DNA of 64,000 bases from Pempheris klunzingeri (lineage: Eukaryota > Chordata > Actinopteri > Acropomatiformes > Pempheridae). The position numbers and the translations under genes are program-made. Below, in pieces: positions 7,872 to 55,299 of this stretch. Within the stretch, counting starts at the first letter, position 1; each line of letters begins with the position of its first letter. Below the pieces are notes generated by a model that was given only the letters and a program-made list of their open reading frames with translations, did not search any database and had not been told where the DNA came from. The DNA lies in assembly GCF_042242105.1 (NCBI RefSeq), contig NC_092028.1, positions 8,541,338 through 8,605,337 of the forward strand, read 5' to 3'.

Positions 7872-9643
7872 TTAGTAAGAGTGAGTTTTCCACTCCTCTT
7901 CCAAATCTGAAAAATGGAGAGAAGAATATTAGAGACAAACTACCTATTCTCAAGCAGGAAGACTAAAAAAGATGATGGCGTGAAAGACGCGGTTTTCAGG
8001 AGGTATTACCTTCACCTAAACTCCTTTTGCCCATGAGTCCGACAAACATCTCCCCTTTATTTCCTGATGGAGATACAGAAGGAGAGAAAAGGGGGAAAAA
8101 AAGATTTTAATGACAGACAAACCTAATGATCTTAAAACTGGAGGTAATCGAATGAGAGAGAACCAAGTAAGACACAACACGTGTTTTTCTTATGGTCTAA
8201 ATATACTTACTTTTCCTGCCCAATCTCACAGGCTGAGATGTACCTGAAATAAAGGAAGGATAAATATGTTAGTGATGGTAAAAGAAGTGCATTAGAGACA
8301 CCGCGAGTTCCAGTTGAGACATCATACAGATTTTTACTGAAGATGAAAACAATATGACAAAGTACAATACAGCTTATTGATTTGTTTATTTACCTGAGCT
8401 TCTTCCCATCAGGCCATGGAACTGCTGTGCTTTGGACCGCTTAATGAGGTCTGCCAGCCGGATGGATATTCCTTTCTCTAGCGGGTAGCCCTGCACACAC
8501 ACAACAAAAGGCGGTCGAGTCATCACAGCACGGGAATGTTTGAAGGTACTCCTGACTGTAAATCACCCAGAACCCTGCAGAGAGCTGGTGCTGACAAAAC
8601 TGAGCGGGAAGAAATTAATTCATTTAGATGTATTTAAACTAAAGGGAAAAGTAGAGTACTGCAGAGTGTACAAGGACACAATTTTCACTGGCAATGAGGA
8701 AGACATCTCTCTCCGTGTCACTTTGAAATCCTATTTCTTTTCCCCTTTACGCTTTCAGTTTAATTCATTCACTAAAATCCCTTTAAACTATTTCTTCAGC
8801 TGTCAAAGAGAGAAGAGAGGAGGTGATAAAAAATGGATCTTGTGCTAGAACTGAGCATCAATCAATTATCAGGAATTAGGCAGCATGAGGTCTAAAGCAA
8901 TGACTGTGTGTGTGTGTCTGCCCCACTACACCTTCACTGTATGCACTCTGAATGTAAGTGAGTGGATGCTTCCCACACACTCAAATAGTAATCAAATATT
9001 TTAAAAGGAAGTTTTCTCAGCGCTTCTTAAAAACATTTTTTATCTCCATTTTCTTCTTTGGGGGTTTTCCACATGTCAGCTCTGTGGCTCTCCCACTTCA
9101 CTCACTGCCTGTGTGTCTGACAGTGTCGCTCTCCGCGGTGCTGAAATGTGAGCGCGTCCAACAAACACAGATAAATAAAGTCAAGCAAAGAAAGGAGGTT
9201 CCTTTGTGTTTTTGTGGAGATTTCACCTAAATGTAGCATCCTTCTTGTGCATGTCTCTGGCTCCTTCTCAGAGTGCAGGGAGGAGGGAAGTCAGAGGGAA
9301 ATAGATGATCAGATTAAGCCCTAAATTGGTGCGACATGATAGTTGAATTGATTGATTGACAGTTAGAGTTAAATGAACTCACTATAAACCTCCACATTAG
9401 AGAGAACATGACGCATTCCATGTGTATTCTTTTCTCTTCTCCCAGGATCTCTTTCTTAAAACAGTGCATGCAAGTATGTTTTATAATATATATGTATAGT
9501 ATCATTTTTTTTCTTTTTACCTGCCAGTTATCCACCGTCCAGATCTCCCCGTCTTCGTTTTCGCTCAGGGGGGTTCCCAGCGCGCCGAAAACCTGCACGA
9601 ACACGACCACCAGCAGCACAGCTACAAACTTCAGAGCCTCCAT
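7872..9643 (-). CDS. tac4: Tachykinin-4 precursor (hemokinin/endokinin type)
   Basis: Preprohormone of 111 aa in five coding exons on the minus strand: 9521-9643, 8394-8490, 8211-8243, 8016-8063 and 7872-7906. The exon lengths sum to 336 nt. The start ATG (9643) opens a signal peptide MEALKFVAVLLVVVFVQVFG. Peptide 1 is released by KR before SKAQQFHGLM and is followed by GR. Peptide 2 lies between RKR and GKR as NKGEMFVGLM. Both end in the tachykinin core FxGLM with a glycine amide donor, so the products should be secreted, amidated agonists of neurokinin-type GPCRs. Peptide 1 has His at the variable core position. Two peptides plus the place beside kat7 favour tac4 over tac1 or tac3. Exons 3 and 4 (33 and 48 nt) are both phase 1-1, so each can be skipped in frame. 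Confidence 0.95.
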
Positions 9644-9795
9644 CGTCACCTAAGGGTGCCAAAATAAAAGTGGCCGCGGATGGTCAAGAAAAACGCCCCC
9701 GCTTTGGGATCATACAGCAGCCAAATAACTTCTAACTACCACAAATGTGCGCTTTGTCCTGCACTTTGTTGGTCCTGAGTGAAGGTCTCCGTTTG

Positions 9796-22848: not shown

Positions 22849-25800
22849 TCAAAGAGGCGTCAGCTCTTCCTCCTCCATGTCACACAGGCTCGCTGAGCTG
22901 TATAAATCAATCCAGAACCCAGGGTAGAGGGGCTCGGTGAACCTGGAGTAAAAGGTGACGAGGCAAACTTTGGGGCACCAGACCTGACTGTAGAGACTGT
23001 AAAAGGACAGGGTGCCGGCAGCCCAGTCCAGGTACACTGCTATTCTGGTAGTGTTAAGATTGTGGTAATTTAGGCATCTTCCGGTCTTATTGTGTCGAGC
23101 ACCGTACCCATCACTACCACAATCCAGATACCAGGACTTTTCGTTCAACCCAAGACAGCAGTCATTAGCTTCTCCACTCCTACTGATTCCTTTGTAAGTC
23201 ACTGCAATCTGAACCTCTCCACCCCACTCCACCTCCCAGTAACAACGATCGCTCAGGCCCTCTCTGCACAGAATCTGAAACCAGCCGTCAAATCGCTCAG
23301 GGTGATCTGGGTATGGCTGCTCCTCAGGCTCCCGTCTCACTGTCCTGTTTTCATCAGACAGAACGAGGGCTTTGTGTGTCGTGTTTACGTCCAGTGTGAG
23401 CTCACAGGCATCTGATGGAAAGAACAAGTCAAACAGCAGTTTCAGACCTGTGGTGTTCTCTTTAATGACACATTTTCTTTTTACTGTTTTCACGTGACCC
23501 GAATAAACACATACATTCATGAACTTTCAGTTCAAATAGAAATCTGATCTTTGTAATGCGTATCCACTTACACTTCTTCAGACCAGATTTCAACCAGCGC
23601 ATTCCACCAGGGTCCATCCTGGAAAAAGAATTTGAGTTATCATTTATACTTTTTAAATAAAAAGCCTTAACGTGACACAATGGCAGTGTTTCTAATCTGT
23701 TAGCCATCTTCCAGCTGCTGGCTCCCCATACCTGAGAGTATCCAACCTCCACTTTGGCTCCTTCAGTCCAGCTGAGAGCAGCTTTACTCCTGAGTCTCCT
23801 GGATGATTGTAGCTCAGGTCCAGCTCTTTTAAATGGGAGGGGTTGGAGCTCAGAGCTGAGGCCAGAAAAGCACAGCCCTCCTCAGTGACCAGACAGCCCG
23901 ACAACCTACACACACAGTGTTGTGAATTTGTTTTTACTGATTTAAACCACAACCTTTCATCATTTATGAAATTAATTCAGTGGATGCAAAGGTGGCAGGG
24001 ATTGGGATCTGTGACCAGATGGAAGCAGTGTGAAGAAAGGGTTGTTGTGGCTACATCTAAGGGCTTTTCAGGTGAGGTCTTAGAGGTTAGAAGTGGGGAG
24101 TTTGTTCATGCTGGAGGCAGTTACCATGGTGAACAAACAGTAACCTTACCTGAGGGTTTCCAGTCTGCATTGTGGACTCTCCAGTCCAACTGAGAGGACC
24201 TTCACTCCTAAATCCTGCAGGTCGTTGTTACTCAGGTCCAGCTGTTTCAGACAAGATGACTGTGAGCTGAGAACTGATGCCAGTGCTTCACAGCTCATCC
24301 ATGACAGCTTGCACAAACTCAGCCTTAAAGAACATGAGAATAGATTGAGATGATTTCTTTTATCGACAACAGCATTCATTTGAACAAATTAGCCATCAAT
24401 TTCAATTTGTTTGAACTTTTGATATTTTCTTTTTGTAAAAGTGGCAGCCTATATTTGCGGTGTTTCAGCACTGAATTCTGACCTGAGAGATTCCAGTGTA
24501 CAGTGTATACTCCCAACTCCAGCAGAGAGCAGCTTCACTCCAGAGTCCTGCAGGTCATTGTTACTCAGGTCCAGCTCTCGCAGATTAGAGGTCTCACAGC
24601 TGAGAACTGAGGCCAGAGGTGCACAGCTCTGCTCTGACAGGTTACAGTCATTAAGCCTGAAGAAGGTGATGAAAACAAATGCCGGTTTTTAAAAGAGTTG
24701 CTTTGGCTTGCTTGGTTGGCTAATTCGAGTTTGGAAGTTGGAAGGATTTTAATGATCTCTCGCAAATTCACTACCATGCACTGGTACTGAATTTGCATAT
24801 CTGGTTCCTGTGGTTGCGTTTCTCCTTACTCTGGTTCTCTGACTTTCAGGAATGACTGCTGCAGATCGTCTGCTGCCTCCACTTTTTACAAATATTAGTT
24901 GTGTTATTATTATTCATATATTAACTATTGTCATGTTATTCACTGTTACCATATTTCTCATTATTAGTCATATTCATATTGCCAGTAATATAGTTGCTCT
25001 TATCATTATGGTTGTTGTTTGTTGTGCATATATCTACATCTATATCTACATAGACCCTGACAGAAAGCTGCCCACCTCTGAGCCTGGTTCTGTTTGAGGT
25101 TTCTTCCTGTTAAGGGGGAGTTTTTCCTTACCACTGAATTCTTAAATCGTTGGGTCTCTCTCTCAAATAAAGAGTTGGGTTTAAACTTGCTCTTTATGGA
25201 AAGCAGGCAAGAGATAACACTTGTTATCAGTTGGCGCTATATAGATAAAGATTTATTGATTGACTATAGAGTAAAGCACATTGTTGAATTTTGGTCTTTG
25301 GTCTTTTCATGTGATTTGTTGACAGCAATGCCAACTTTAATCTTTAAACCCAAAACAGACATGATAAAAAAAAAGTCATTAAGACAACTTTTTTAAAACA
25401 CAATAAAAAAAAAGTGTGCTGACTTGAGCGTTTCCAGTCTACAGTTGGGGCTCTGTAGTCCATCAGAGAGCACCGTCACTCCTCCATCATCAGGGTCGTT
25501 GCTACTCAGGTCCAGCTCTTTAAGATAAGATGGTTGGGAGCTGAGAGCTGAGGCCAGAGCTGAACTGCAGCACCCTGTCAAATCACAGCAACTCAACCTG
25601 GTGAGGATTAATATGGGGAAGTCAAGAATTTTGAAAACAATCCCATTCTTGCCCATAAAAAACAACACGTGATGTTATTATTGGAATACATCCACCTACA
25701 GATATGTACTGGAGGCTTGAAACGCTGGCAGCAGTCTCAGAAAGCCCTCCTCTGAGGCAGAGTATTTCTTTAAGTCAAACACGTCATGCTGTTTTTCTGA

Positions 25801-28423
25801 TGACTGTAAGATGAACACCAGAGCTGACCACTGCGCAGGAGAGAGATATCTTTTGGCAATGTTTCCTTCACTCAAGTACTGTTGGATCTCCTCCACAAGG
25901 GAACGATCATTTAACTCATGCAGACAGTGAAGCAAGTTGATGCTTCTCTCTGGAGACCTGATCCACCTGATCTTCTCCCGAATGTACTGGATTGTTTCCT
26001 GATTGCTATTCGAGCTGTTTTTTTTCTTTTTAAATAGTTGTGCCAGGAGATCTTGATTGGTCTGCGATGAAAGACCCAACAGGAAGCGGAGAAACAAGTC
26101 CAAGTGTCCATCTGGACTATCTAAGGCCTTGTCAATGGCAATCTTCTGGACCTCTGTTGCAGACGTTTTGCTGAAAAGCATCCCCAGATTTTTGAAAGCC
26201 GACTGGGATTCAGCCATCACATTCTTGTGGCTGTTAACGCGGGACAGCTCCACATAAAAAGCAGCCAGAAACTCCTGAATGCTCAGATGAATAAAACTGA
26301 ACATTCTGTCCTTTCCCTTGCCGTTCCTCCTCCAGCTCTCCTTTTTAAAGATCTGTGTAAACACTCCAGAGTACAAAGAGGCTTCATTGAGATAAATTCC
26401 ACTCTCTCGTAGGTCTTTCTCGTAGAAGATCAGGTTTCCTTTCTCGAGCTGGTAAAAAGCCAGTTTTGCAAGTGACTGAATATACTGAATGCTCTTTTTT
26501 GTGTCATACTTCTCTTTTGTCTGTCTGATTTGAAACATCAGGAATTCTGTGTACATCTCAGTCAGGGTTTTGGGCAACTGTACTGCAACACTGGTTTTCA
26601 ACACATCCTCTAGGACTGTTGCGGTGATCCAACAGAAGACTGGGATGTGGCACATAATGTGGAGGCATTGTGATGTCTTCATGTGGGAGATTATTTTGCC
26701 AGCATGCTCATCATGACTGAATCTCTTGGCGAAATACTCCTCTTTCTGTGGGTCACTGAACCCTCTCACTTCTGTTACAATGTCGACAAAGTCTCGAGAG
26801 AGTTGACTGGCTGCTGCAGGTCGTGCAGTTATCCAGAGACGAGCAGAGGGTAGCAGAGTCCCCTTAATGAGGTTCATCAGCAGTCTTTCTACCGCAACTG
26901 GTTTCGTCACATCAATATTGTCTTTCTCTTTGGCAGTAAAGTCCAGCCGAAGGCGGTTCTCATCTAGTCCATCTAACACAAACACAAGTTTAAATTTGCT
27001 TTTGTCATAGTTGGTGTTTCCTGACATCTGTAGTGCTGTGAAAATGTAATTAAGAGCCTCTTCTCTGATGTCTTTGGTTTCCTTGATACATTTGTGAATT
27101 AGTTTGGCAAGATGGAACTTTTTTCCCTTCAGTAAATTCAGCTGGCGGAAAGTGAAGGGGAATGTGAGGTGCACATCTTGATTGGCTCTTCCTTCAGCCC
27201 AGTTGAGGATGAACTTGTGCACAAGGAAGGTTTTCCCAATTCCTGCAATCCCATTGGTCAGCACGGTCCTTATGGGTCTGTATTTTCCAGAAGGGTGCTT
27301 GAAGATATCACAGAGTTTGATTGATTTCTCTGTTCTTACTGGCTTTCTTGCTGCCTTCTCAACCTGCCTGACCTCATGTTGCCTGTTAATTTGCATGTCA
27401 CTTCCGTCTGTGATATAGAGCTCTGTATAAATATCATTCAGGAGTTTTTTATCCTCCACATCTGACACATCTTCTTGCACACACATAAACCGGTTCTGAA
27501 GATTAGATTGGAGCACTTGCTGGTACGATGTAATTGGCTGCGGAGGCTTTGGTACTGGCACCATCACATCTGTGTGGAACAAAGTAGTACAAGAGGTAGG
27601 ACAGCCGGTGGATACTCTTGTTAAGATTCAGACAATTTCACAAATTACAAACTGTTTGATGCAAAATTAACCCTTAAAAGCGTTTGCGTTTCATTTGCTG
27701 AAAAAGGAAAAGCTATGACCAGAAAATAACACAGCAGACTAAAGGCAATAGTGAGTCCACCTGCTTCAAAAAAAGCCTTTGTTTTGAAGTACTTCACAAT
27801 TGTAAGTGAGTCAATTAAGATATGGGCAATCCATGCACTTTATCAAGGCAAAATAAAAAATAAACGATCGTAATTGTGACTAGAAGACAACCAACATCTT
27901 GTTCAAACAAAAGCTTTACCTTCACTCTGACTGTCTGTAGTGACGAGGTGAGGAGACATGGCCCGTGTATTAAATGAGGAAGCTCCCTTTTCTGGACTAG
28001 TGCCCACACCACTTACATCTACTGCAACAAAAAGAGAGAGTGACAGAAAGAGGAATGTTCAACACAAGTCAACCTGTCAACAACCATCACTTTTCCAATA
28101 ATTCTAACTTGCCATAACTTACCCTTTGGTGCTGGGGCGAGGCTCTGTAATCGCTGCACCAGATCATTTCTGTTGATCTTTGTTAAAAGCTTCCCGGTTA
28201 CCTCCAGAGCTCCATGGAGGCCAAAGGCCTGCACCATGTGAACAACGGTGTCCTGCCTGTCTGCCCCCTCCAGCCGGGACACAGGGATGGCTGGGTAGAC
28301 TTCCAGATGGGGCATGATTGTGTGCATGATGTCCGCCTGCTGGAGGAGCCATTTTAACTGCTTGAATTCCTCCTCCCTCAAATCCTCCAGAGTTATCCAG
28401 ACCTTCTCCTTCAGTGAGGCCAT
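22849..28423 (-). CDS. NLR receptor, copy 1: PYD-FISNA-NACHT-LRR-B30.2
   Basis: Cytosolic pattern-recognition NLR of the teleost-expanded NLRC3-like class. Nine minus-strand exons: 28123-28423, 27920-28021, 25700-27569, 25424-25597, 24483-24656, 24150-24323, 23732-23905, 23572-23618 and 22849-23411. They sum to 3579 nt (1192 aa) with every junction in phase. Exon 1 is a pyrin-like death-fold (MASLKEKVW... [14 protein letters not shown]). Exon 2 is a linker. Exon 3 holds FISNA ([18 protein letters not shown]) and NACHT, with Walker A GIAGIGKT and Walker [11 protein letters not shown]. Four LRR exons of exactly 174 nt follow ([17 protein letters not shown] type), then a 47-nt exon and a PRY-SPRY exon ([22 protein letters not shown]). 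The gene appears intact. It is one of two tandem copies; signalling role and ligand are inferred from the family. Confidence 0.94.
24810..25265 (+). repeat. Dispersed LINE/SINE-like repeat in NLR copy 1 intron
   Basis: Runs from about ggttcctgtggttgcg, through gacagaaagctgcccacc and gaggtttcttcctgtta, to the tail ggcgctatatagataaagat plus ttgattga. It lies between the first and second LRR exons, opposite to the gene. The same insertion is in copy 2, so it predates the duplication. It is the longer form of the tail at 11.1 kb. Confidence 0.65.
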
Positions 28424-28448
28424 TGTAACTGGTAAAAAAAAAAATCAT

Positions 28449-31597: not shown

Positions 31598-34500
31598 TCA
31601 AACAGGCGACAGCTCTTCCTCCTCCATGTCACACAGGCTCGCTGAGCTGTATAAATCAATCCAGAACCCAGGGTAGAGGGGCTCGGTGAACCTGGAGTAA
31701 AAGGTGATGAGGCGAACATTGGGGCACCAGACCTGAGGGTGGAGCCTGTAAAAGGACAGGGTGCCGGCAGCCCAGTCCAGGTACACTGCTATTCTGGTAG
31801 TGTCAAGGGGGTGGTAATATGGGCATCTTCCGGTCTTATTGTGTTGAGCACCGTACCCATCACTACCACAATCCAGATACCAGGACTTTTCGTTCAACCC
31901 AAGACAGCAGTCGTTAGCTTCTCCACTCCTACTGATTCCTTTGTAAGTCACTGCAATCTTAACCTCTCCACCCCACTCCACCTCCCAGTAACAACGATCG
32001 CTCAGGCCCTCTCTGCACAGAATCTGAAACCAGCCGTCAAATCGCTCAGGGTGATCTGGGTATGGCTGCTCCTCAGGCTCCCGTCTCACTGTCCTGTTTT
32101 CAACAGACAGAACGAGGGCTTTGTGTGCCGTGTTTACGTCCAGTGTGAGCTCACAGGCATCTGATGGAAAGAACAAGTCAAGCAGCAGTTTCAGACCTGT
32201 GGTGTTCTCTTTAATGACACATTTTCTTTTTACTGTTTTCACGTGACCCGAATAAACACATACATTCATGAACTTTCAGTTCAAATAGAAATCTGATCTT
32301 TGTAATGCGTATCCACTTACACTTCTTCAGACCAGATTTCAACCAGCGCATTCCACCAGGGTCCATCCTGGAAAAAGAATTTGAGTTATCATTTATACTT
32401 TTTAAATAAAAAGCCTTAACGTGACACAATGGCAGTGTTTCTGATCTGTTAGCCATCTTCCAGCTGCTGGCTCCCCATACCTGAGAGTATCCAACCTCCA
32501 CTTTGGCTCCTTCAGTCCAGCTGAGAGCAGCTTTACTCCTGAGTCTCCTGGATGATTGTAGCTCAGGTCCAGCTCTTTTAAATGGGAGGGGTTGGAGCTC
32601 AGAGCTGAGGCCAGAAAAGCACAGCCCTCCTCAGTGACCAGACAGCCCGACAACCTACACACACAGTGTTGTGAATTTGTTTTTACTGATTTAAACCACA
32701 ACCTTTCATCATTTATGAAATTAATTCAGTAGATGCAAAGGTGGCTAAACTCCTGCCATAGCATGGCTGTTTGCAGGCCAGGGATCTGGATCTGTGACCA
32801 GATGGAAGCAGTGTGAAGAAAGGGTTGTTGTGGCTACATCTAAGGGCTTTTCAGGTGAGGTCTTAGAGGTTAGAAGTGGGGAGTTTGTTCATGCTGGAGG
32901 CAGTTACCATGGTAACAAACAGTAACCTTACCTGAGGGTTTCCAGTCTGCATTGTGGACTCTCCAGTCCAACTGAGAGGACCTTCACTCCTAAATCCTGC
33001 AGGTCGTTGTTACTCAGGTCCAGCTGTTTCAGACAAGATGACTGTGAGCTGAGAACTGATGCCAGTGCTTCACAGCTCATCCATGACAGCTTGCACAAAC
33101 TCAGCCTTAAAGAACATGAGAATAGATTGAGATGATTTCTTTTATCGACAACAGCATTCATTTGAACAAATTAGCCATCAATTTCAATTTGTTTGAACTT
33201 TTGATATTTTCTTTTTGTAAAAGTGGCAGCCTATGTTTGTGGTGTTTCAGCACTGAATTCTGACCTGAGAGATTCCAGTGTACAGTGTATACTCCCAACT
33301 CCAGCAGAGAGCAGCTTCACTCCAGAGTCCTGCAGGTCATTGTTACTCAGGTCCAGCTCTCGCAGATTAGAGGTCTCACAGCTGAGAACTGAGGCCAGAG
33401 GTGCACAGCTCTGCTCCGACAGGTTACAGTCATTAAGCCTGAAGAAGGTGATGAAAGCAAATGCCGGTTTTTAAAAGAGTTGCTTTGGCTTGCTTGGTTG
33501 GCTAATTCGAGTTTGGAAGTTGGAAGAATTTTAATGATCTCTTGCAAATTCACTACCATGCACTGGTACTGAATTTGCATATCTGGTTCCTGTGGTTGCG
33601 TTTCTCCTTACTCTGGTTCTCTGACTTTCAGGAATGACTGCTGCAGATCGTCTGCTGCCTCCACTTTTTACAAATATTAGTTGTGTTATTATTATTATTG
33701 TCATGTTATTCACTGTTACCATATTTCTCATTATTGCGTCATATTCATATTGTCAGTAATATAGTTGCTCTTATTATTAGGATTGTTGTTTGTTGTGCAT
33801 ATATCTACATCTATATCTACATAGACCCTGACAGAAAGCTGCCCACCTCTGAGCCTGGTTCTGTTTGAGGTTTCTTCCTGTTAAAGGGGAGTTTTTCCTT
33901 ACCACTGTTGCCTAATAAGTGATACTTGCTCATGTGGGGATTCTTGAATCATTGGGTCTCTCTCTCAAATAAAGAGTTGGGTTTAAACTTGCTCTTTATG
34001 GAAAGCAGGCTAGAGATAACACTTGTTATCAGTTGGCGCTATATAGATAAAGATTTATTGATTGACTATAGAATAAAGCACATTGTTGGTTTGGTCTTTT
34101 CATGGGATTTGTTGACAGCAATGCCAACTTTAATCTTTAAACCTAGAATGTTGACACATGCAGCTCTATCTAAAGCTTAAATATACAGAAGATTGCCACA
34201 AGACAAAGGCCCAAAACAGACATGATAAAAAAAGAAGTGAAAAGTCAGTAAGACAACTTTTTGAAAACACAATAAAAAAAAGTGTGCTGACTTGAGCAAT
34301 TCCAGTCTACAGTTGGGGTTCTGTAGTCCATCAGAGAGCACCGTCACTCCTCCATCATCAGGGTCGTTGCTACTCAGGTCCAGCTCTTTCAGATAAGATG
34401 GTTGGGAGCTGAGAGCTGAGGCCAGAGCTGAACTGCAGCACTCTTTCAAATCACAGCCACTCAACCTGGTGAGGATTAATATGGGGAAGTCAAGAATTTT

Positions 34501-37291
34501 GACAACAAGCTCATTCTTACCAATAAAAAACAACACGTGATGTTATTATTGGAATACATCCACCTACAGATATGTACTGGAGGCTTGAAACACTGGCAGC
34601 AGTCTCAGGAAGCCCTCCTCTGAGGCAGAGTATTTCTTTAAGTCAAACACATCATGCTGTTTTTCTGATGACTGTAAGATGAACACCAGAGCTGACCACT
34701 GCGCAGGAGAGAGATATCTTTCGGCAATGTTTCCTTCACTCAAGTACTGTTGGACCTCCTCCACAAGGGAACGATCATTTAACTCAAGCAGACAGTGAAG
34801 CAAGTTGATGCTTCTCTCTGGAGACCTGATCCACCTGATCTTCTCCCGAATGTACTGGATTGTTTCCTGATTGCTATTCGAGCTGTTTTTTTTCTTTTTA
34901 AATAGTTGTGCCAGGAGATCTTGATTGGTCTGCGATGAAAGACCCAACAGGAAGCGGAGAAACAAGTCCAAGTGCCCATCTGGACTATCTAAGGCCTTGT
35001 CAATGGCAATCTTCTGGACCTCTGTTGCAGACGTTTTGCTGAAAAGCATCCCCAGATTTTTGAAAGCCGACTGGGATTCAGCCATCACATTCTTGTGGCT
35101 GTTAACGCGGGACAGCTCCACATAAAAAGCAGCCAGAAACTCCTGAATGCTCAGATGAATAAAACTGAACATTCTGTCCTTTCCCTTGTCGTTCCTCCTC
35201 CAGCTCTCCTTTTTAAAGATCTGTGTAAACACTCCAGAGTACAAAGAGGCTTCATTGAGATAAATTCCACTCTCTCGTAGGTCTTTCTCGTAGAAGATCA
35301 GGTTTCCTTTCTCGAGCTGGTAAAAAGCCAGTTTTGCAAGTGACTGAATATACTGAATGCTCTTTTTTGTGTCATACTTCTCTTTTGTCTGTCTGATTTG
35401 AAACATCAGGAATTCTGTGTACATCTCAGTCAGGGTTTTGGGCAACTGTACTGCAACACTGGTTTTCAACACATCCTCTAGGACTGTTGCGGTGATCCAA
35501 CAGAAGACTGGGATGTGGCACATAATGTGGAGGCTTCGTGATGTCTTGATGTGGGAGATGATTTTGCCAGCATGCTCATCATGACTGACTCTCTTGGCGA
35601 AATACTCCTCTTTCTGTGGGTCGCTGAACCCTCTCACTTCTGTTACAATGTCGACAAAGTCTCGAGAGAGTTGACTGGCTGCTGCAGGTCGTGCAGTTAT
35701 CCAGAGACGAGCAGAGGGTAGCAGAGTCCCCTTAATGAGGTTCATCAGCAGTCTTTCTACCGCAACTGGTTTCGTCACATCAATAGTGTCTTTCTCTTTG
35801 GCAGTAAAGTCCAGCCGAAGGCGGTTCTCATCTAGTCCATCTAACACAAACACAAGTTTAAATTTGCTTTTGTCATAGTTGGTGTTTCCTGACATCTGTA
35901 GTGCTGTGAAAATGTAATTAAGAGCCTCTTCTCTGATGTCTTTGGTTTCCTTGATACATTTGTGAATTAGTTTGGCAAGATGGAACTTTTTTCCCTTCAG
36001 TAAATTCAGCTGGCGGAAAGTGAAGGGGAATGTGAGGTGCACATCTTGATTGGCTCTTCCTTCAGCCCAGTTGAGGATGAACTTGTGCACAAGGAAGGTT
36101 TTCCCAATTCCTGCAATCCCATTGGTCAGCACGGTCCTTATGGGTCTGTATTTTCCAGAAGGGTGCTTGAAGATATCACTGAGTTTGATTGATTTCTCTG
36201 TTCTTACTGGCTTTCTTGCTGCCTTCTCAACCTGCCTGACCTCATGTTGCCTGTTAATTTGCATGTCACTTCCGTCTGTGATATAGAGCTCTGTATAAAT
36301 ATCATTCAGGAGTTTTTTATCCTCCACATCTGACAGTCCTTCTTGCACACACATAAACCGGTTCTGAAGATTAGATTGGAGCACTTGCTGGTACGATGTA
36401 ATTGGCTGCGGAGGCTTTGGTACTGGCACCATCACATCTGTGTGGAACAAAGTAGTACAAGAGGTAGGACAGCCGGTGGATACTCTTGTTAAGATTCAGA
36501 CAATTTCACAAATTACAAACTGTTTGATGCAAAATTAACCCTTAAAAGCGTTTGCGTTTCATTTGCTGAAAAAGGAAAAGCTATGACCAGAAAATAACAC
36601 AGCAGACTAAAGGCAATAGTGAGTCCACCTGCTTCAAAAAAAGCCTTTGTTTTGAAGTACTTCACAATTGTAAGTGAGTCAATTAAGATATGGGCAATCC
36701 ATGCACTTTATCAAGGCAAAATAAAAAATAAACGATCGTAATTGTGACTAGAAGACAACCAACATCTTGTTCAAACAAAAGCTTTACCTTCACTCTGACT
36801 GTCTGTAGTGACGAGGTGAGGAGACATGGCCCGTGTATTAAATGAGGAAGCTCCCTTTTCTGGACTAGTGCCCACACCACTTACATCTACTGCAACAAAA
36901 AGAGAGAGTGACAGAAAGAGGAATGTTCAACACAAGTCAACCTGTCAACAACCATCACTTTTCTAATAATTCTAACTTGCCATAACTTACCCTTTGGTGC
37001 TGGGGCGAGGCTCTGTAATCGCTGCACCAGATCATTTCTGTTGATCTTTGTTAAAAGCTTCCCGGTTACCTCCAGAGCTCCATGGAGGCCAAAGGCCTGC
37101 ACCATGTGAACAACGGTGTCCTGCCTGTCTGCCCCCTCCAGCCGGGACACAGGGATGGCTGGGTAGACTTCCAGATGGGGCATGATTGTGTGCATGATGT
37201 CCGCCTGCTGGAGGAGCCATTTTAACTGCTTGAATTCCTCCTCCCTCAAATCCTCCAGAGTTATCCAGACCTTCTCCTTCAGTGAGGCCAT
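31598..37291 (-). CDS. NLR receptor, copy 2: PYD-FISNA-NACHT-LRR-B30.2
   Basis: Tandem paralogue of the NLR at 22849-28423 with the same nine exons: 36991-37291, 36788-36889, 34568-36437, 34292-34465, 33265-33438, 32932-33105, 32481-32654, 32321-32367 and 31598-32160. Length is again 3579 nt (1192 aa) and the frame is open throughout. The pyrin-like exon is identical in sequence to copy 1. The NACHT exon differs at about 13 residues (for example EDVSD to EGLSD, and ISHMKTSQC to ISHIKTSRS). Walker A GIAGIGKT and Walker B LDGLDE are kept. The B30.2 exon is the most changed: [17 protein letters not shown] became [17 protein letters not shown], and nearby loop residues also differ. Both copies look functional, so this is a recent expansion with possible specificity divergence. 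Confidence 0.94.
33610..34075 (+). repeat. Dispersed LINE/SINE-like repeat in NLR copy 2 intron
   Basis: Counterpart of the element at 24810-25265, at the same intron position. It retains a stretch missing from copy 1 (acctttgcc-like region around cactgttgcctaataagtg, about 33902-33935). Copy 1 thus lost a piece after duplication. Confidence 0.65.
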
Positions 37292-38089
37292 TGTAACTGG
37301 TAAAAAAAAAAATCATTTTTTAATCCAAAAGACAATTAGACAGCTTCCATTTTCAGGGTCCAAGACAAATGATGAATCTCATCCCATCTCTTAAATGCAA
37401 GAGTTTTAGACATCTATGTATGAAGTTCTATCACAAGGTTAGGGAGCAAAGATCAAGCCTCAGAGACCTAAATATCTAAGCTCATCATATCAGTTTCTTT
37501 CCACTTTTATTCAGTTTTCACATGACTTGTGACAAACTTTGATGGCGAACACTCACTTCAGTGGTGGAGCAGGTGCACCTTCTCAACCCTTCAGACAGCG
37601 ATCCCTTCAGGGATCAGTTAATCCCTGAGGTTTTGGAGTCTCCTCTATCTCCTAAAATTCACACTTTTCAGGAAACTCGGTTGCGCTCGGTTGGCCATAT
37701 TCTACAGCGCATGCGACTGACGACACCAACGTTGCCCAACCTTTACCTAGCAGCACCCTCACCTCCTCCAGCACACCTCGCCTCTGCCACCTTAACACAC
37801 CAGCAGTCCCATCGACTCCAAGCATATCCCAGTGGACTGTCACTTGCCTGAAACAAGCGCTCTGTCAGACAAACATTCCTTTCCACTGCACCGACAATGA
37901 CACCAAACTCTCAGCAATAGAAAACACTCCCTCAGCTAGAGGGTAAGGTTAATTTGTAGTTCCAGTATCATGTCTGCAGTAACTTTGAAGCTGTCAGCGT
38001 CCAAAGTCCATAAACTATTTATAAGAAGTGAACTTTGCTTCCAGGTGTGGAAAGTGAAGCCAAAGTGCCTTAAACCTCAATCCGTATAA

Positions 38090-46047: not shown

Positions 46048-49000
46048 TCACAAAGTGGTCGTGGAGGGCCGTGCAGTGAGCGTGCGCAGGCGGTGAGACT
46101 GTGTGTGGGTGTGTGTGTGTATGAGGCTGTGTACAGCGTGTCTGTATCTGGCAGACATCAGATTGTACAGTAACGGGTTGATAGCAGCACTGAGGTAGAA
46201 GAGGACAGAGGACACCAGGTTGATATACTGAGAGAGATAGTATAAAAAAACCAAGTGTGGGTCAGGGTGTGTGTATGTATTGTTGAACGCTGTGCTGTTG
46301 TGTGTGTTATCAGTGTATAGGCTGGTGGGCGTCACAGCATGTGTTGTTTGTGTTTGTGTATGTTGTGTGTTTGTGAGTGTGGGGTGTGTGTTATTTTGTG
46401 AGTTGATAATGGGTGTCCTGCTTAGCATGCTAATGGCTGTGTGTGCATCTGTGTTGGTGCTTGTGTCAGTATGGAAACTGCTGTGCAAGTGTGATAGTTG
46501 TGTGAAAATACGTGTGGTTTTGTGCGTATCATTATATGTAGCGGTGTCTCTGTCTGTGTGTGTCATCTTTCCATTCCTAAAGGGTGTCTTGAAGTGCATG
46601 TCCCGGTCTGAGTCTGAGTAGCTGATGGGTTCACTAACGGCGTGTATGTTGCTATCTCTGCCTATGCCATCAGAGAGCGTGTTCATCTCTAAAGGTGCAT
46701 TCGTGTCAGTGTATGCTTCCTGTCCGTAAATACCGGTGTCCATGGAAAAGGAGAAAATAGTCCGACCCACATGGAACGGCAGCCAGCATAGAACAAACGC
46801 CAAGACAATCACTCCTGGAGGAGGGAAAGAGACAGAGGAGGAGCAGGGTGGAGAGAAAAACACAGGAGAAGGACAATAGAGTCATTAATATCTGAAGCAA
46901 AGATGGTGAAAGATGTCTCTTCCTCAAATAATGCTACCCTTGTAATTAAGTGGTCTCAAAATACTATTCTAGTTTGCTAGAAGTGTGTCAGCAGAAGCCC
47001 TCGAAGTTACTGTAAAAATAAAAATGTCTGAGGGTGTGTGGCGTTCTCACCCAGCATTTTGATAGTGTGCCGGTGACTCTGGTCCCTGCGGCTGCTTTGT
47101 GGGCGGAGCCACAGTGTCCGTCCAATAAGGCTGTAGACCAGTCCCAGGATGCAGAGGGGTACCAGGAAGTACAGGTTGGAGAGAATCATCATGGCCGCCA
47201 AGAGACCGGAGGAGATGGCGTAGTCGGTGCAGCGGCACTCTGTCTCGTCACTCTCTTCTGTGTGACCTCCTAAATCCTCCTCTTCCCATCCTCCTCCCTC
47301 ATCTTCCTTCATTTTGTTTTGCTGCTCTCTCTCGTCTTCCATCTTCCCCTCTTCTTGACCTCCTCCCTCATCTGCTTGTTTCCTCTCATCTCTTTCTCCT
47401 ACTCCTGGTTTTCTCTCTCCTTTCTCTCCCAGCCATTTGAACTCTCTCACTCTTTCACCCCATCCCATTTCTGCTTTCTCTCTCCACTTTATTCCCTCTA
47501 ATCCTTCATCCATCAAGGCCATGTGTCCACTTCCGTTTTCCCTTCCACCCGTCATAAATCCTCCCTGTTCTCCTTCCCTGCGTGTCCAACCTCCGTCCTC
47601 CCTCCATCCGCCAGTCCCTAACTCCTCTCTCCCAACTTCTTCCACTCCAACCATGACTAACACCGGTGCAGCGCTGACGACCGCAGCCAGCCAGAGGCAG
47701 CCAATGAGAGCCCTGGTTCTGCGCCGTGTCACCAGGGTCTTGGCTGTGATTGGCCAGCAGACCGCCAGGTATCGCTCCAGGGAGAGGAAGGTGATGTGGA
47801 GGATGGTGCAGAAGGTGCAGCACTCTGACAGGAACATTGTCACCTTACAGGCGAGGTCTCCTAAAGGCCAGGGTATGGGCCTCCAGAGCTGAGAGAGACA
47901 CAACAATTATTTAACCCTGACATTTCATTTAATGGCAACGCAGCAGATCTTGTTTAAGGAGCACATTTTCAAACCAAAAAAAAAAACACAAGAAAAGTGA
48001 AGTTTTACAACAAGACAAAATTTAGCTGGAAATCAACTGCAATTGTGTGTCAACCAAAGAGGCAGAATGACGACATCTTGACAACTGCCAATTGAAACTG
48101 AATGACAGTGAACTTGTATTAAGACCAGAACTGGATGGGCAAAACACACTTGAGCTTCAGCTATAATTGCAGTGTGGCTCAAGGGATACAGTATTAATCA
48201 TATTCAGTCTACCACTTTGTCCAAGAAATTAGCGACAGATATTCAGTGTCTTTGTAGGATAAACTCCAATGACACTGGCTATCCTGTGCACTTGTAATAT
48301 GGCACCAGTGTCACCACCGGGGTTGCAGCAGTATACCATTTTCATTGACGGTTATCATACCACATACGTTTGCTCATGTACAGTGTTGAATTAGAATCTC
48401 ACCTGTGCATGCATGATATTTATCCCCTTTTCTCCTCATCTCCTGGTCTAATTTCACCACACACATTCAGTGAGGAAATTGTCAAAGAGAAGAGAGACTG
48501 ACTGCAAAAACAGATGTTTGAGTTTATTTTCATTTTCCTATATTTTTATTTTGTGCACTCAAGGGAATATCAATCAAACCAGTGTTGCTTTATTCACTTT
48601 AACAATGCCATTTATCTTGCTTTGCAAGTGAACTGAAATTGTTAATAGTCATAGGATATTATTTGAAAAGCTCACAGCTGATGTTATTTTTCATTTTTTA
48701 GTTAATTCAACATGCTATGGTGCTATCGTAAACTACCATGCTTTACATAACATGTTACAGTTCCATGCTATTCCATGCTATTTTTCATCATGTTAATAAT
48801 TCAGTCTCTCTCTTCTTCAGGGTTAAGCTACCCCTGCAAAAACACTTCTTGATTCAGCTCAACCAGCTGTCACACTGTCATATTTTATGAGATCTTACCA
48901 TTAAAATCTCACATCGCTGCAACTCTAATCACCACTTGCCACTTACAGATTGCGGGGGCAGAATCTGGGGAGTAGCTTGGTTCTAAACCTCTTAAACGTC

Positions 49001-50826
49001 CCAGACGTCTTTGATGTTTTCAACAACCCAAAAAGGAACCAGGAAATATTACGTATTTACTGACACATGTCATTTGATTATCCATCGTGATTGCACAGAG
49101 GATATGTTAGAAGAATGATCTAAGGGCACTCTGGATATGACCTGTTATGAACCCTTAAACATAATAGAAGAAAACTTCATTTGGCAGCAGGGATTACCCC
49201 CAGGGGGGAAGTAACAGGGGCTTGTTTAAACCACTATTGGAACACAATTCTCAGAAAGGAGCAGATGCATCATGCCCTCTCCATCATTCATATCAGTGGT
49301 CTGCAGTTTTTCCTGTGACTGCACCTTGGTCAGCTCATTCTGCGTGTGTGTGAGTGTGTGTGTGTGTACCTTATACAGATCCAGAGGCAGCAGTAGGAGT
49401 ATCAACAGATCACTAACAGCCATGCTGCTCAGGTAGAGGTAGGTAGAGCTTCTCATGTGTGGCCGGAGCCAAACCACCAGAATTGTTAGAGTGTTTCCCA
49501 GAAGGCCGAAGAGCATCAGTGAAATGTAAATGACAGTCACACACACTAGAATATGAAATATTGATGTTTCATCAGCATCACTTTGCATTGTCTGAAGAAC
49601 TGTATAGATTGTCAGCCATAAATGAACAAATGTTACATTTTACTACACTATGCACTTGTTAGTTTGACATCTGTGGATGTAAGCTTATTAGCTTTCTTGC
49701 TGAGAGTTAGATGAGAAGATTGATACCACACTCATGTAGGTAAATGTGGAGGTACTGCCAGCAGCCGCTTAGCTTAGCTTAGCTTAGCACAAAGACTGGA
49801 AACATGTCAAAAGGTAGAAAATATGTTGTTTTACTCTGGATTTTGTGCAACATGCTTATTCATTTGTAACTCGAAAAATCAGGAAATCTGCTTCATCATG
49901 ACTGTAAGTGAGGTTGATAAGCGTTGATTGACAGTAGCCCGACAACATCTGTTGTCACATTTTGATTCAGATATTGTCATATCTGGGCGTCCCAGTAGCC
50001 TAAGAGTTAAGGCTCATTCCACACAATGCAATGTCCACACATTGGGGCGGCTGTGGCTCAGATGGTAGAGTGGGTCGTCCATCAATCGCTGGTTCGATCC
50101 CCGGCTGCTTTGAGTCAGCATGTCGAAGTGTCCTTGGGCAAGACACTGAACGCCAACTTGCTCCTGAAGCAGCTTCAGTGTGAGAATGTGTGTGAAAGAA
50201 TAGTTTCCTCCAACTTAGATTCCTCCTGAATGAATAATGTGTGAATGAGGATGTGATGTAAAAGTGCTTTGAGTAGTTGAAATGACTATAAGGGCGCTAC
50301 ACAAATACAGACCATTTACCATGTATTGCGCTCTCTCTCTCTCTCTCTCTCTCAAGGCCTTTAACACTAAGCTAAGCTGTCTGCTTTCTGTAGCTCACAC
50401 ATGCGGACATGAGTTGTATTGCTCTTCTCATCTAACTCTCAGCAAGAATGCAAATAAGGGTATTTCCCAAAATGTTTTAAGTATTCCTTTAAATCAAAAG
50501 AAAGAAGGAATTATCCAGACACCACAATTTCCTTCAGTCAAACAAGATTAAGGCCAAAGTTAAAGGGGAGGGGAAACTTTATCAGTTGTAACCCCCTTTG
50601 TGATTTTTTTTTTTGCTTGTTTTGTTGCTCCCTCAGATCTTGCCCGGTACAGCTTTTAACTTCTATTAACAAAATGTGCAATAATTGCTTTTTACCCACC
50701 TAACTCAATCAATCCAAACACAGGTTCCTTCCACTGGCACTCTTGGTTCGAGCAGTCCTCTGGGAAGCCCGATGCGAGGCCACAGTCTTCTTCTTCACAG
50801 CCACTGCCCAACTCCGTAAGATCCAT
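46048..50826 (-). CDS. Ghrelin/motilin receptor-family GPCR with giant loops
   Basis: Rhodopsin-class receptor of the GHSR/MLNR group, expected to bind a ghrelin- or motilin-like peptide at the plasma membrane. Four minus-strand exons: 50700-50826, 49370-49545, 47051-47888 and 46048-46814 (1908 nt, 635 aa, in phase). The N-terminus starts MDLTELGSGCEEEDCG. TM1-2 are in exon 2 (GNTLTILVVWLRP, SDLLILLLLPLDLYK). Exon 3 has LWRPIPWPLGDLACK, ERY at the end of TM3, and TM4-5 with SLIGRTLW. Exon 4 has VLCWLPFHVGR (TM6) and YLSAAINPLLYN (TM7). Family members are about 360-410 aa. The excess is an E/G/K-rich insert of about 135 aa in loop 2 and a T/N/H-rich insert of about 155 aa in loop 3. Loop 2 length and the TM7 approach (YYLSQYINLV) fit MLNR best, but a teleost GHSR-like paralogue is possible. 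A start at 50937 is an alternative. Confidence 0.87.
47265..47650 (+). repeat. Long polypyrimidine-rich tract encoding GPCR loop 2
   Basis: The plus strand is dominated by C and T (ctcctcttcccatcctcctc and similar) for almost 400 bp. The minus, coding strand is correspondingly purine-rich and yields Glu, Gly, Lys, Arg and Trp codons. It looks like an expanded, partly degenerated GGA/GAG simple repeat kept in frame. Confidence 0.7.
49985..50325 (+). mobile_element. tRNA-derived SINE(s) nested in the fold-back MITE
   Basis: From about 50043 the sequence has an A box (tggctcagatggtagagtgg) and a B box (ggttcgatccccgg). A body follows (catgtcgaagtgtccttggg) and a 3' end (gggcgctacacaaatacaga) before ccatttacca. 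In front is a piece of another tRNA-type head (gtcccagtagcctaagagtt, about 49989-50035). These are retroposed SINEs, not a functional tRNA gene. Confidence 0.75.
50329..50353 (+). repeat. (CT)n microsatellite
   Basis: About twelve CT units directly after the SINE 3' end. Confidence 0.85.
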
Positions 50827-52825: not shown

Positions 52826-55299
52826 GTCTTCTATCCCAGCAGTCTTCCTGCAGCAGTCATGGCAGAGTGTATGTGTCTCCAGTCCTCGTTGCCCAGCGGA
52901 GGAACAACTCCACCTCACCTAAGATCAAAGTGGACTATGACAAAGGCACAGGTAAAGAGTCTGAGCATCATCACCATCCCCTCTCTCTCTTCCTCTTTCT
53001 TTTAGCTCTCTGTCTCTCTCTTTTTCTGATTTTATTGTTAAAGACAATTTGAGTGGATTTCAAAGCTTCCACGTGGTGTGAGTATTTCAAAGAGTTAGGC
53101 AGTTGGAGAGTAGCGAGTTGTGCAAGTCAGACACAGCAAAGGAAGAATTGTTTTAAATTCTGGTTACCAGCATAAATATTGTCCTTGTTATTTCCTTTCA
53201 GGATAAATCTGTAGAACGTGCATGTCAAAGTATTCAATCAAAAGATGGGCGTCTCTGTCTCTATAGGAGTGGCAGTGATACACATGCAGAGTCCGCCGGT
53301 CAACAGCCTCAGTTTGGATTTCCTCACGGAGTTCTGCATCGGTGTGGAGAAGCTGGAGATGGATAAGAGCTGCCGAGGCGTCATCATCACATCGGTACAG
53401 TGTAACCTCATTGTGGCTAGCGTTTTCGCTGCTGGTGTGTGTGACAAATGGTAGTACAAATTAACTAGCGTTTATCCTGAGTGTGTGCGTTGCTTCGATC
53501 CAGAGCCAGCCCAAAGTGTTCTCGGCCGGCCTGGACATCATGGAGATGTACGGAAAGACTCCAGAGCGCTGCGGAGAGTTCTGGAAAGCCGTTCAGGAGA
53601 TGTGGCTGAAACTCTACAGCTCCAACATGGTCACTATAGCTGCAATCAACGTACGTATGAAATGCCTGCCCCAACATTCTGTCCCTGAAAAAAAGTCCTG
53701 TATCAATCAAGGAGTGAGGCTTTTTATATTAAGAGCTGCAGCAACAGTATTTTGATTCTAACAAAAAAAAAAAATTAACCCTTCGCTTACCTCATCACAC
53801 CATTCAGGGTTCCAGTCCTGCAGGTGGCTGTCTGATGTCTTTAGCATGTGACTACAGGATAATGGCAGACAACCCTCGTTACAGCATCGGCCTTAATGAG
53901 ACACAGCTCGGTATCGTAGCACCCTTTTGGTAAGGAATTGTTATTGTGACAACACCCATGACCGTTGTGGTAATATTCATATGGATGATATTTTATTTTA
54001 TTTAACCAGATAAAAACCCATTGAGATCAAGATCTCTTTCACATAGTGTTCATATGTACAATATATCCAACAAGTGATAAGTAATTGTTGACTATACAAC
54101 AATTACTGCTGTGGTCTGCAGGTTTAAGGACACCATGGCGAACACAGTGGGCCACCGAACCACAGAGCTGGCTCTGGAGCTGGGGCTGCTTTACAACCCT
54201 TCGGAGGCCCTGAAGATAGGACTTGTGGACCAGCTGGTACCTGAAGACCAGGTCCTCCCCACAGCTACACAGACCATGACCAAGTGGTTGGCTATTCCAG
54301 GTAGTTTACGCATTATATAGCAACTTAAAAACAGCATTTTATGTTGTAGCATATGATCACATTGATCACGATTGAATTTTAGTTCCAGTTTGAATTTAAA
54401 GGTGATACTTTAGTCGTTAATGCTGAACAAGTTTCCTGATGTTGGTTACATAGAGATGATAATGACTCTCCCAAAGCTATCTGCTGCATTCCTGAGGGTG
54501 CTTTTTTTTTTCTACTTTTAACAAAGAATAGCATAACATTTTGTTTCCTGCTTGTTCAGTATTTTAGCAGTACTCATACTGCAATGCTGAAATGTTGAAT
54601 GGATTGTCTTTTTGCACCCAAGTGGAAATGGCTGCTCATCGGCTATTTACACCTGGTCCAGTTATGCGGTATAAAGACTACCAATTTATGAGACTACCAA
54701 TAAATTCAATTATTTTACTTAAAATAAAATAGAAATATACAAATATACAAGGCAGTGTAAATTAAACACAAAATATCTTCTTTTCAACATACACCCAGGT
54801 GTAAATAGCCACACTGGCTGTTTCACCCGGGTGCAAATAGCATCTGCCCAATGTTAGATATACATTAGTGTGGTATTATTATGCACAACTATGTGTCTTT
54901 TAATTGAAGCATGAATTTTGTTTTTGCTGACCTCCAGTGATGGATGTTGTCACCTTGCTACGGTGATGTAGAAGTACACTCCAGAAACCGCTGACATACT
55001 TAATGAGTTCTGTCCCTGCTTGAAATGCAGGTGATAAAATAACAGCAAGTGTTTATTGATTTATTCAAGCCACTGTGAAACGGCTCCAGGTTTGGAATCT
55101 GCGAGCTCACTGTTCATCTGCTGTCTTCACAGACCATGCCAGACAGATCACCAAGTCCATGATGAGGAAGCCCACCATCGACAAGCTAACCTCCAACAGA
55201 GAGGCTGACATCCACAACTTTGTCAGTTTCATCACCAAAGACTCCATTCAGAAGTCGCTCCGCATGTACCTGGAGATGCTGAAAAAGAGAAAGAGCTAG
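52177..55299 (+). CDS. eci1: Enoyl-CoA delta isomerase 1, mitochondrial
   Basis: Isomerises 3-cis/3-trans-enoyl-CoA to 2-trans-enoyl-CoA in the mitochondrial matrix, so unsaturated fatty acids can enter beta-oxidation. Seven exons: 52177-52219, 52826-52951, 53267-53394, 53504-53650, 53808-53929, 54122-54300 and 55133-55299 (912 nt, 303 aa), all GT-AG and in phase. The N-terminus MALRAALRNKCGL through RRNNSTSPK is basic and Ser-rich, as a mitochondrial presequence should be. The crotonase fold shows oxyanion-hole segments VFSAGLDIMEMYG and SPAGGCLMSLACDYR. The segment SIGLNETQLGIVAPFW holds the family's catalytic Glu. The C-terminus NFVSFITKDSIQKSLRMYLEML matches vertebrate ECI1. A (TG)n run forms the 3' splice site of intron 1. 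It is convergent with dnase1. Confidence 0.98.
52788..52823 (+). repeat. eci1: (TG)n microsatellite at eci1 exon 2 acceptor
   Basis: About seventeen TG units run directly into the acceptor CAG at 52823-52825. The repeat therefore replaces the usual polypyrimidine tract. Confidence 0.9.

Follow-up and report, generated by a model that had tools for sequence, protein, structure and literature searches.

The receptor gene and its neighbours

The window (the whole stretch of Pempheris klunzingeri DNA analysed, 64 kb) contains a receptor gene on its minus strand, with three exons that join in phase into 607 codons and GT-AG junctions throughout (Table 1). No frame of the introns is free of stops (33/35/33 by frame in intron 1 and 4/5/3 in intron 2). 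Its matches place the product among class A receptors, nearest to GHSR. Exon 2 was matched by Pfam 7tm_1 at 4.7e-25 in a Pfam scan; exon 3 alone gave no Pfam match at 1e-3. Human GHSR was the best match in PDB (the exon 2 frame at 2.1e-39, the exon 3 frame at 7.4e-19), the motilin receptor coming next, and the ghrelin/motilin type proposed in the initial annotation was supported.

An intron between TM5 and TM6 is a trait of the GHSR/MLNR family. It was found in the window receptor (intron 2) and, at a matching place, in the GHSR-type gene (on C13) and the MLNR gene (on C4) of the same genome, the splice sites of the two paralogues being approximate. An additional intron of the window receptor (47889-49369, minus strand) separates TM2 from TM3 (DLYK/LW); in both paralogues TM1 to TM5 form one open frame. 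When the alignments were read by eye, the six key residues given for GHSR in the available part of PMC4797157 (D99, C116, E124, M213, S217 and H280) were all found to be kept. The N-tail is of about 10 residues and carries no sequon. In the region around the ATG (49588-49640, minus strand), a site resembling an acceptor lies immediately ahead of it, at 49591, and a further exon upstream is possible.

The receptor gene lies between pieces of ECI1 and tachykinin exons which, from their motifs, we take to be those of TAC4. One ECI1 piece matched PDB 1sg4 at 5.7e-20, and the signal-peptide open frame of the TAC4-like gene gave no Pfam match. Two NLR genes separate the TAC4-like gene from the receptor. 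They are near-identical and in tandem (22849-28444 and 31598-37312, minus strand; 8.7-8.9 kb apart), and pieces corresponding to PYRIN, FISNA-NACHT-HD2 and PRY-SPRY were detected with Pfam in the first copy. No Rfam family scored above its gathering threshold in the window.

According to the text of Tine and others (2016; PMC4797157), in its available part, ECI1 and TAC4 flank LR2a in teleosts, as they do the receptor here. The same flanks are given there for two LR2b entries (576-577 residues, from live-bearers). Of the 12 LR2a entries in the table, five are long, with 451-543 residues, and the other seven (zebrafish, gar and five further fish) have only 303-344. The window gene is like GHS-Ra-LR2a/LR2b, as described in that part of the article, in its ECI1/TAC4 flanks, in encoding a GHSR/MLNR-type receptor and in the length of the protein, shared with some members. 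One very long loop is described there as ICL3; the long loops of the window gene are ECL2 and ECL3. Because LR2a has short members and two LR2b entries have the same flanks, LR2a cannot be told apart cleanly by loop length or by flanks. The flanks point to the teleost GHS-Ra-LR2 clade, and to LR2a by the text of the article; assignment of the window receptor to LR2a rather than LR2b is not firm.

Table 1. Positions of the features in the window
Feature	Position	Strand	Description
TAC4-like preprotachykinin exons	7999..9649	-	Two tachykinin motifs, QQFHGLMGR and MFVGLMGKR
Exon 3	46048..46814	-	TM6, ECL3 with insert, TM7, C-tail, stop codon
Candidate in-phase GT-AG intron, exitron-like	46228..46770	-	543 bases; donor CAT/GTGGGT in TM6, acceptor CTCTCTCAG/TAT
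ECL3 insert	46243..46734	-	164 codons, receptor residues 380-543; rich in Thr, Ser, Asn, His and Asp; four sequons
Intron 2	46815..47050	-	236 bases; separates TM5 from TM6
Exon 2	47051..47888	-	TM3-TM5 and ECL2; acceptor TCTCTCTCAG/C, donor TGG/GTGAGA
ECL2 expansion	47241..47651	-	137 codons counted; rich in Glu and Gly; one sequon
Exon 1	49370..49588	-	First in-frame ATG, N-tail, TM1-TM2; donor AAG/GTACAC
ECI1 pieces (mitochondrial enoyl-CoA delta isomerase)	53215..55296	+	ECH_1 above cut-off in 5 of 5 pieces scanned

Extent, composition and reading frame of the loop inserts

The open frame at 46881-46048 (minus strand) reads CWLPFHVGRTIFSFSMDTG, then a long insert, then YYLSQYINLVSSVLFYLSAAINPLLYN. 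The insert was counted from the G of MDTG in CWLPFHVGRTIFSFSMDTG up to YYLSQYINLVSS, which gives 164 codons. An in-frame expansion of ECL3 between TM6 and TM7 had been claimed initially and is indeed present; the span then given for it (46226..46790) also includes residues of TM6 and TM7. The first G of the insert aligns with the G of FEPG in human GHSR, that is, with the tip of ECL3, and the whole ECL3 comes to about 170 amino acids. In a phmmer search, each flank matched human GHSR on its own (query 23-50 and query 212-268, out of 277), and no match between them was present among the three alignments listed.

The ECL3 insert contains no Cys and no hydrophobic 19-residue window (highest value 0.07). 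The sequons NDT, NNT, NST and NNT, as annotated initially, were all found. Enrichment in sequons was rejected: four are present and 3.87 are expected from shuffled residues, so that the sequon count, being that expected from composition, gives no sign of glycan selection. Mucin-like (PTS) domains have >40% Ser+Thr and >5% Pro across about 100 residues, and this criterion was used here. Ser+Thr make up 29% of the insert overall. A mucin domain was rejected on its best 100-residue stretch (38% Ser+Thr, 4% Pro); the best 50-residue stretch reaches 42% Ser+Thr and 6% Pro, and the mucin-like character once attributed to the insert is at best borderline.

The proposed origin from a CA repeat agrees with the dinucleotide content but not with the length of the repeats. 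The share of CA+AC is 0.26 in the first 180 bases of the insert and 0.43 in the last 312, against 0.14 in the window, and the longest unbroken CA run is of 9 bases in either part. Besides the two low-complexity loop expansions, a CA run encodes HTHTHT in the C-tail (46090-46120, minus strand). A duplicate origin of the loops within the window was rejected, as blastn of both inserts against the 64 kb returned self matches only.

ECL2 is also expanded, to a total of about 142 residues, and ICL3, as delimited by us, is of about 19 residues. The initial annotation was silent on the ECL2 expansion, on the synteny and on the published long loop of the clade. In all, five sequons are found in the two loops and none in the N-tail.

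Stop triplets were counted in each frame of the inserts. The coding strand of the ECL3 insert, a site picked on account of its open frame, contains 20, distributed 0/6/14 by frame. Under random allotment of stops to frames, such an absence has a probability of (2/3)^20 = 3e-4. In 5000 dinucleotide shuffles, 5.96 coding-frame stops were expected and zero stops were obtained in 0.18%. A weaker test using base composition by codon position gave 3.9 expected stops and P = 0.019. For the ECL2 insert, the coding-strand stops are distributed 0/9/6 by frame, with probabilities of 0.2% by shuffles and 0.0019 by codon-position composition. When both inserts are pooled, none of the 35 coding-strand stop triplets falls in the coding frame, and each insert is stop-free solely in the coding frame of its own strand. 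On the opposite strand of the ECL3 insert, stops are distributed 9/2/11 by frame and a 126-codon open frame is present (46241-46621). Outside the gene, 67 of 7140 frames of 492 bases are open (about 1%; overlapping, on both strands and with coding exons such as those of the NLR genes included). The 0/6/14 distribution means that composition alone hardly explains the open frame. What carries weight is that TM6 fixes the frame that stays open and that TM7 is read in that frame again.

Loop lengths in paralogues and in known receptors

The 646-Mb genome was searched with the TM3-TM4 part, and 89 matches were obtained, self included. The best two non-self matches were the GHSR-type gene (55%) and the motilin receptor (48%). 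Over the core, the window receptor shares 53.7% identity with the former (307 aligned positions) and 48.4% with the latter. ECL3 of both paralogues is short and lies inside one open frame (RYLQFRSLDAPSPLLSVLSEY in the GHSR-type gene and RNLFAQVDDYETAMLSQN in MLNR), and for these two genes the statement made initially, that the loop is short in known family members, is supported. MLNR shares with the window receptor its family and the place of the TM5/TM6 intron, and differs from it in this genome by its short ECL3. The span that starts with the CWLP-type motif in TM6 and ends with the NP motif in TM7 is of 204 residues in the window receptor, against 45 and 42 in the two paralogues.

Twenty other class A regions were fetched, chosen by eye among the matches listed with long spans; two long matches with internal stops were omitted, and the sample under-represents multi-exon receptors. 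The CWLP-to-NP span is of 38-49 residues in 19 of these 20 regions, and the remaining one (L041) is unreadable. None of the 21 receptors used for comparison from this genome (the 19 readable regions and the two paralogues) has an ECL3 that approaches that of the window receptor in length. A short ECL3 is a usual, not strictly defining, trait of GHSR/MLNR receptors, and it is absent here. A search of the genome with the exon 3 protein gave eight matches: self and seven starting at query residue 189 at least, which cover TM7 and the tail only. No relatives of exon 3 or of the TM3-TM4 part were found in the prokaryote and viral contig collections.

Long loops have been described in other receptors. 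In percomorph fish, GHS-R1a-LR is a ghrelin-receptor paralogue with an ECL2 of 43 residues instead of 28, according to the available part of Kaiya and others (2013; PMC3713435); ECL2 of the window receptor is of about 142 residues, and it is the GHSR-type gene on C13, a separate gene with a short ECL3, that resembles GHS-R1a-LR. For LR2a, the part of PMC4797157 available reports a long loop, labelled ICL3, of 90-237 residues and of as many as 275, and an ordinary ECL2 in most species. In contrast, the window receptor is long in ECL2 and ECL3 and has the short ICL3 described above. Either the species differ, or the topology was misassigned when the loop was published as ICL3. A long loop in this clade is thus partly known already; its placement on the outside is new.

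C3aR, as described in the available part of PMC10518620, is a class A receptor whose giant flexible ECL2 has about 172 residues and whose N-tail is shorter than that of C5aR1. Its long loop is ECL2 and has a reported role in binding; the loop in question in the window receptor is ECL3, as predicted from the sequence. The example of C3aR makes clear that very long outer loops can have a part in binding the ligand. For the human ghrelin receptor with antagonist bound, a figure legend of PMC12009760 gives part of the TM6-TM7 segment as disordered. No recognisable report of an expanded ECL3 in the GHSR/MLNR family was found in the open-licence literature, and in narrow searches of the same literature an ECL3 as long as this one did not turn up for any class A receptor.

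Interpretation of the expanded loop

The reading that we favour, and hold to be probable, is that of a working-looking GHS-Ra-LR2 gene in which the tip of ECL3, as well as ECL2, has grown by in-frame low-complexity DNA and is tolerated as a polar tether. ECL3 and, separately, ECL2 would have grown by in-frame gain and drift of such DNA, with the receptor core unchanged. Since the tip of ECL3 is outside the ligand pocket, an insert beginning there would be tolerated and would form a long polar tether on the outer side, probably disordered, as its composition suggests, and partly N-glycosylated. The loop most likely neither folds nor binds the ligand itself. Selection would act only on the reading frame and polarity of the insert. 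Once translated, the loop would probably have a steric effect, a mild shielding of the entrance, and it may bear the glycans that are missing from the very short N-tail.

Removal of the loop, wholly or in part, as an intron or exitron, which would give a protein with a short ECL3, appears unlikely. Splice sites were scored with approximate matrices. Only one in-phase GT-AG pair has both sites near the scores of the real sites of the gene: the donor at 46770 scores 6.72 (real donors, 4.31 and 7.36) and the acceptor before 46227 scores 6.58 (real acceptors, 8.44 and 15.5). The DNA between them is a multiple of three in length, and the pair sums to 13.3. The next four in-phase pairs, which would remove 72-411 bases, sum to 8.6, 8.2, 8.1 and 6.9. 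Against such splicing, the donor lies within the conserved FHVGR codons, and YYLSQ, right before the acceptor, aligns with GHSR. Everything from VGR to LSQ would be lost. The last part of TM6 would go, together with residues ahead of TM7 for which GHSR has aligned counterparts, and a normal receptor is therefore hardly expected. That the insert is free of stops in the coding frame alone on its strand also speaks against removal. The view that no convincing in-phase intron removes the loop holds for introns that would spare the conserved helices; the argument made from the acceptor-like sequence is incomplete, as it leaves out this in-phase pair of sites.

It is considered quite unlikely that the gene copy is decaying or has lost its function, with CA-rich and GA-rich DNA gathering neutrally and staying open by chance. 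Low-complexity DNA in two loops and in the C-tail, the very short N-tail and the proportion of same-length frames open outside the gene (about 1%) are consistent with decay, but the exons and splice sites are intact, the six key residues are retained, neither insert is open in any frame of its strand but the coding one, and the 307 positions aligned with the GHSR paralogue are still 53.7% identical.

Little credence is given to a wider proposal, that of a fish receptor group with giant ECL2 and ECL3, the latter wrongly described in print as intracellular, in which a glycan lid would replace the N-tail and change the entry of peptides, or in which a 543-base exitron would switch between lidded and lidless isoforms. 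It is highly improbable that the ECL3 loop is an adaptive glycan-bearing lid that alters the choice of ligand (ghrelin or a motilin-like peptide) and that selection keeps for this function: the open coding frame, the presence of sequons in the loops and not in the N-tail, the precedent of C3aR (a shorter N-tail and a 172-residue ECL2 taking part in binding; available part of PMC10518620) and the long loop reported in the clade are in its favour, but the sequon count is at the level of composition and the same clade has short members (available part of PMC4797157).

The window receptor, with two predicted outer loops far longer than those of its close relatives, looks like a real oddity, although long loops are already on record for its family. 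If the loop is translated, the gene offers a natural experiment on the amount of sequence that the entrance of a peptide receptor tolerates, and it suggests that the 'large ICL3' published for the clade be re-examined as an outer loop.
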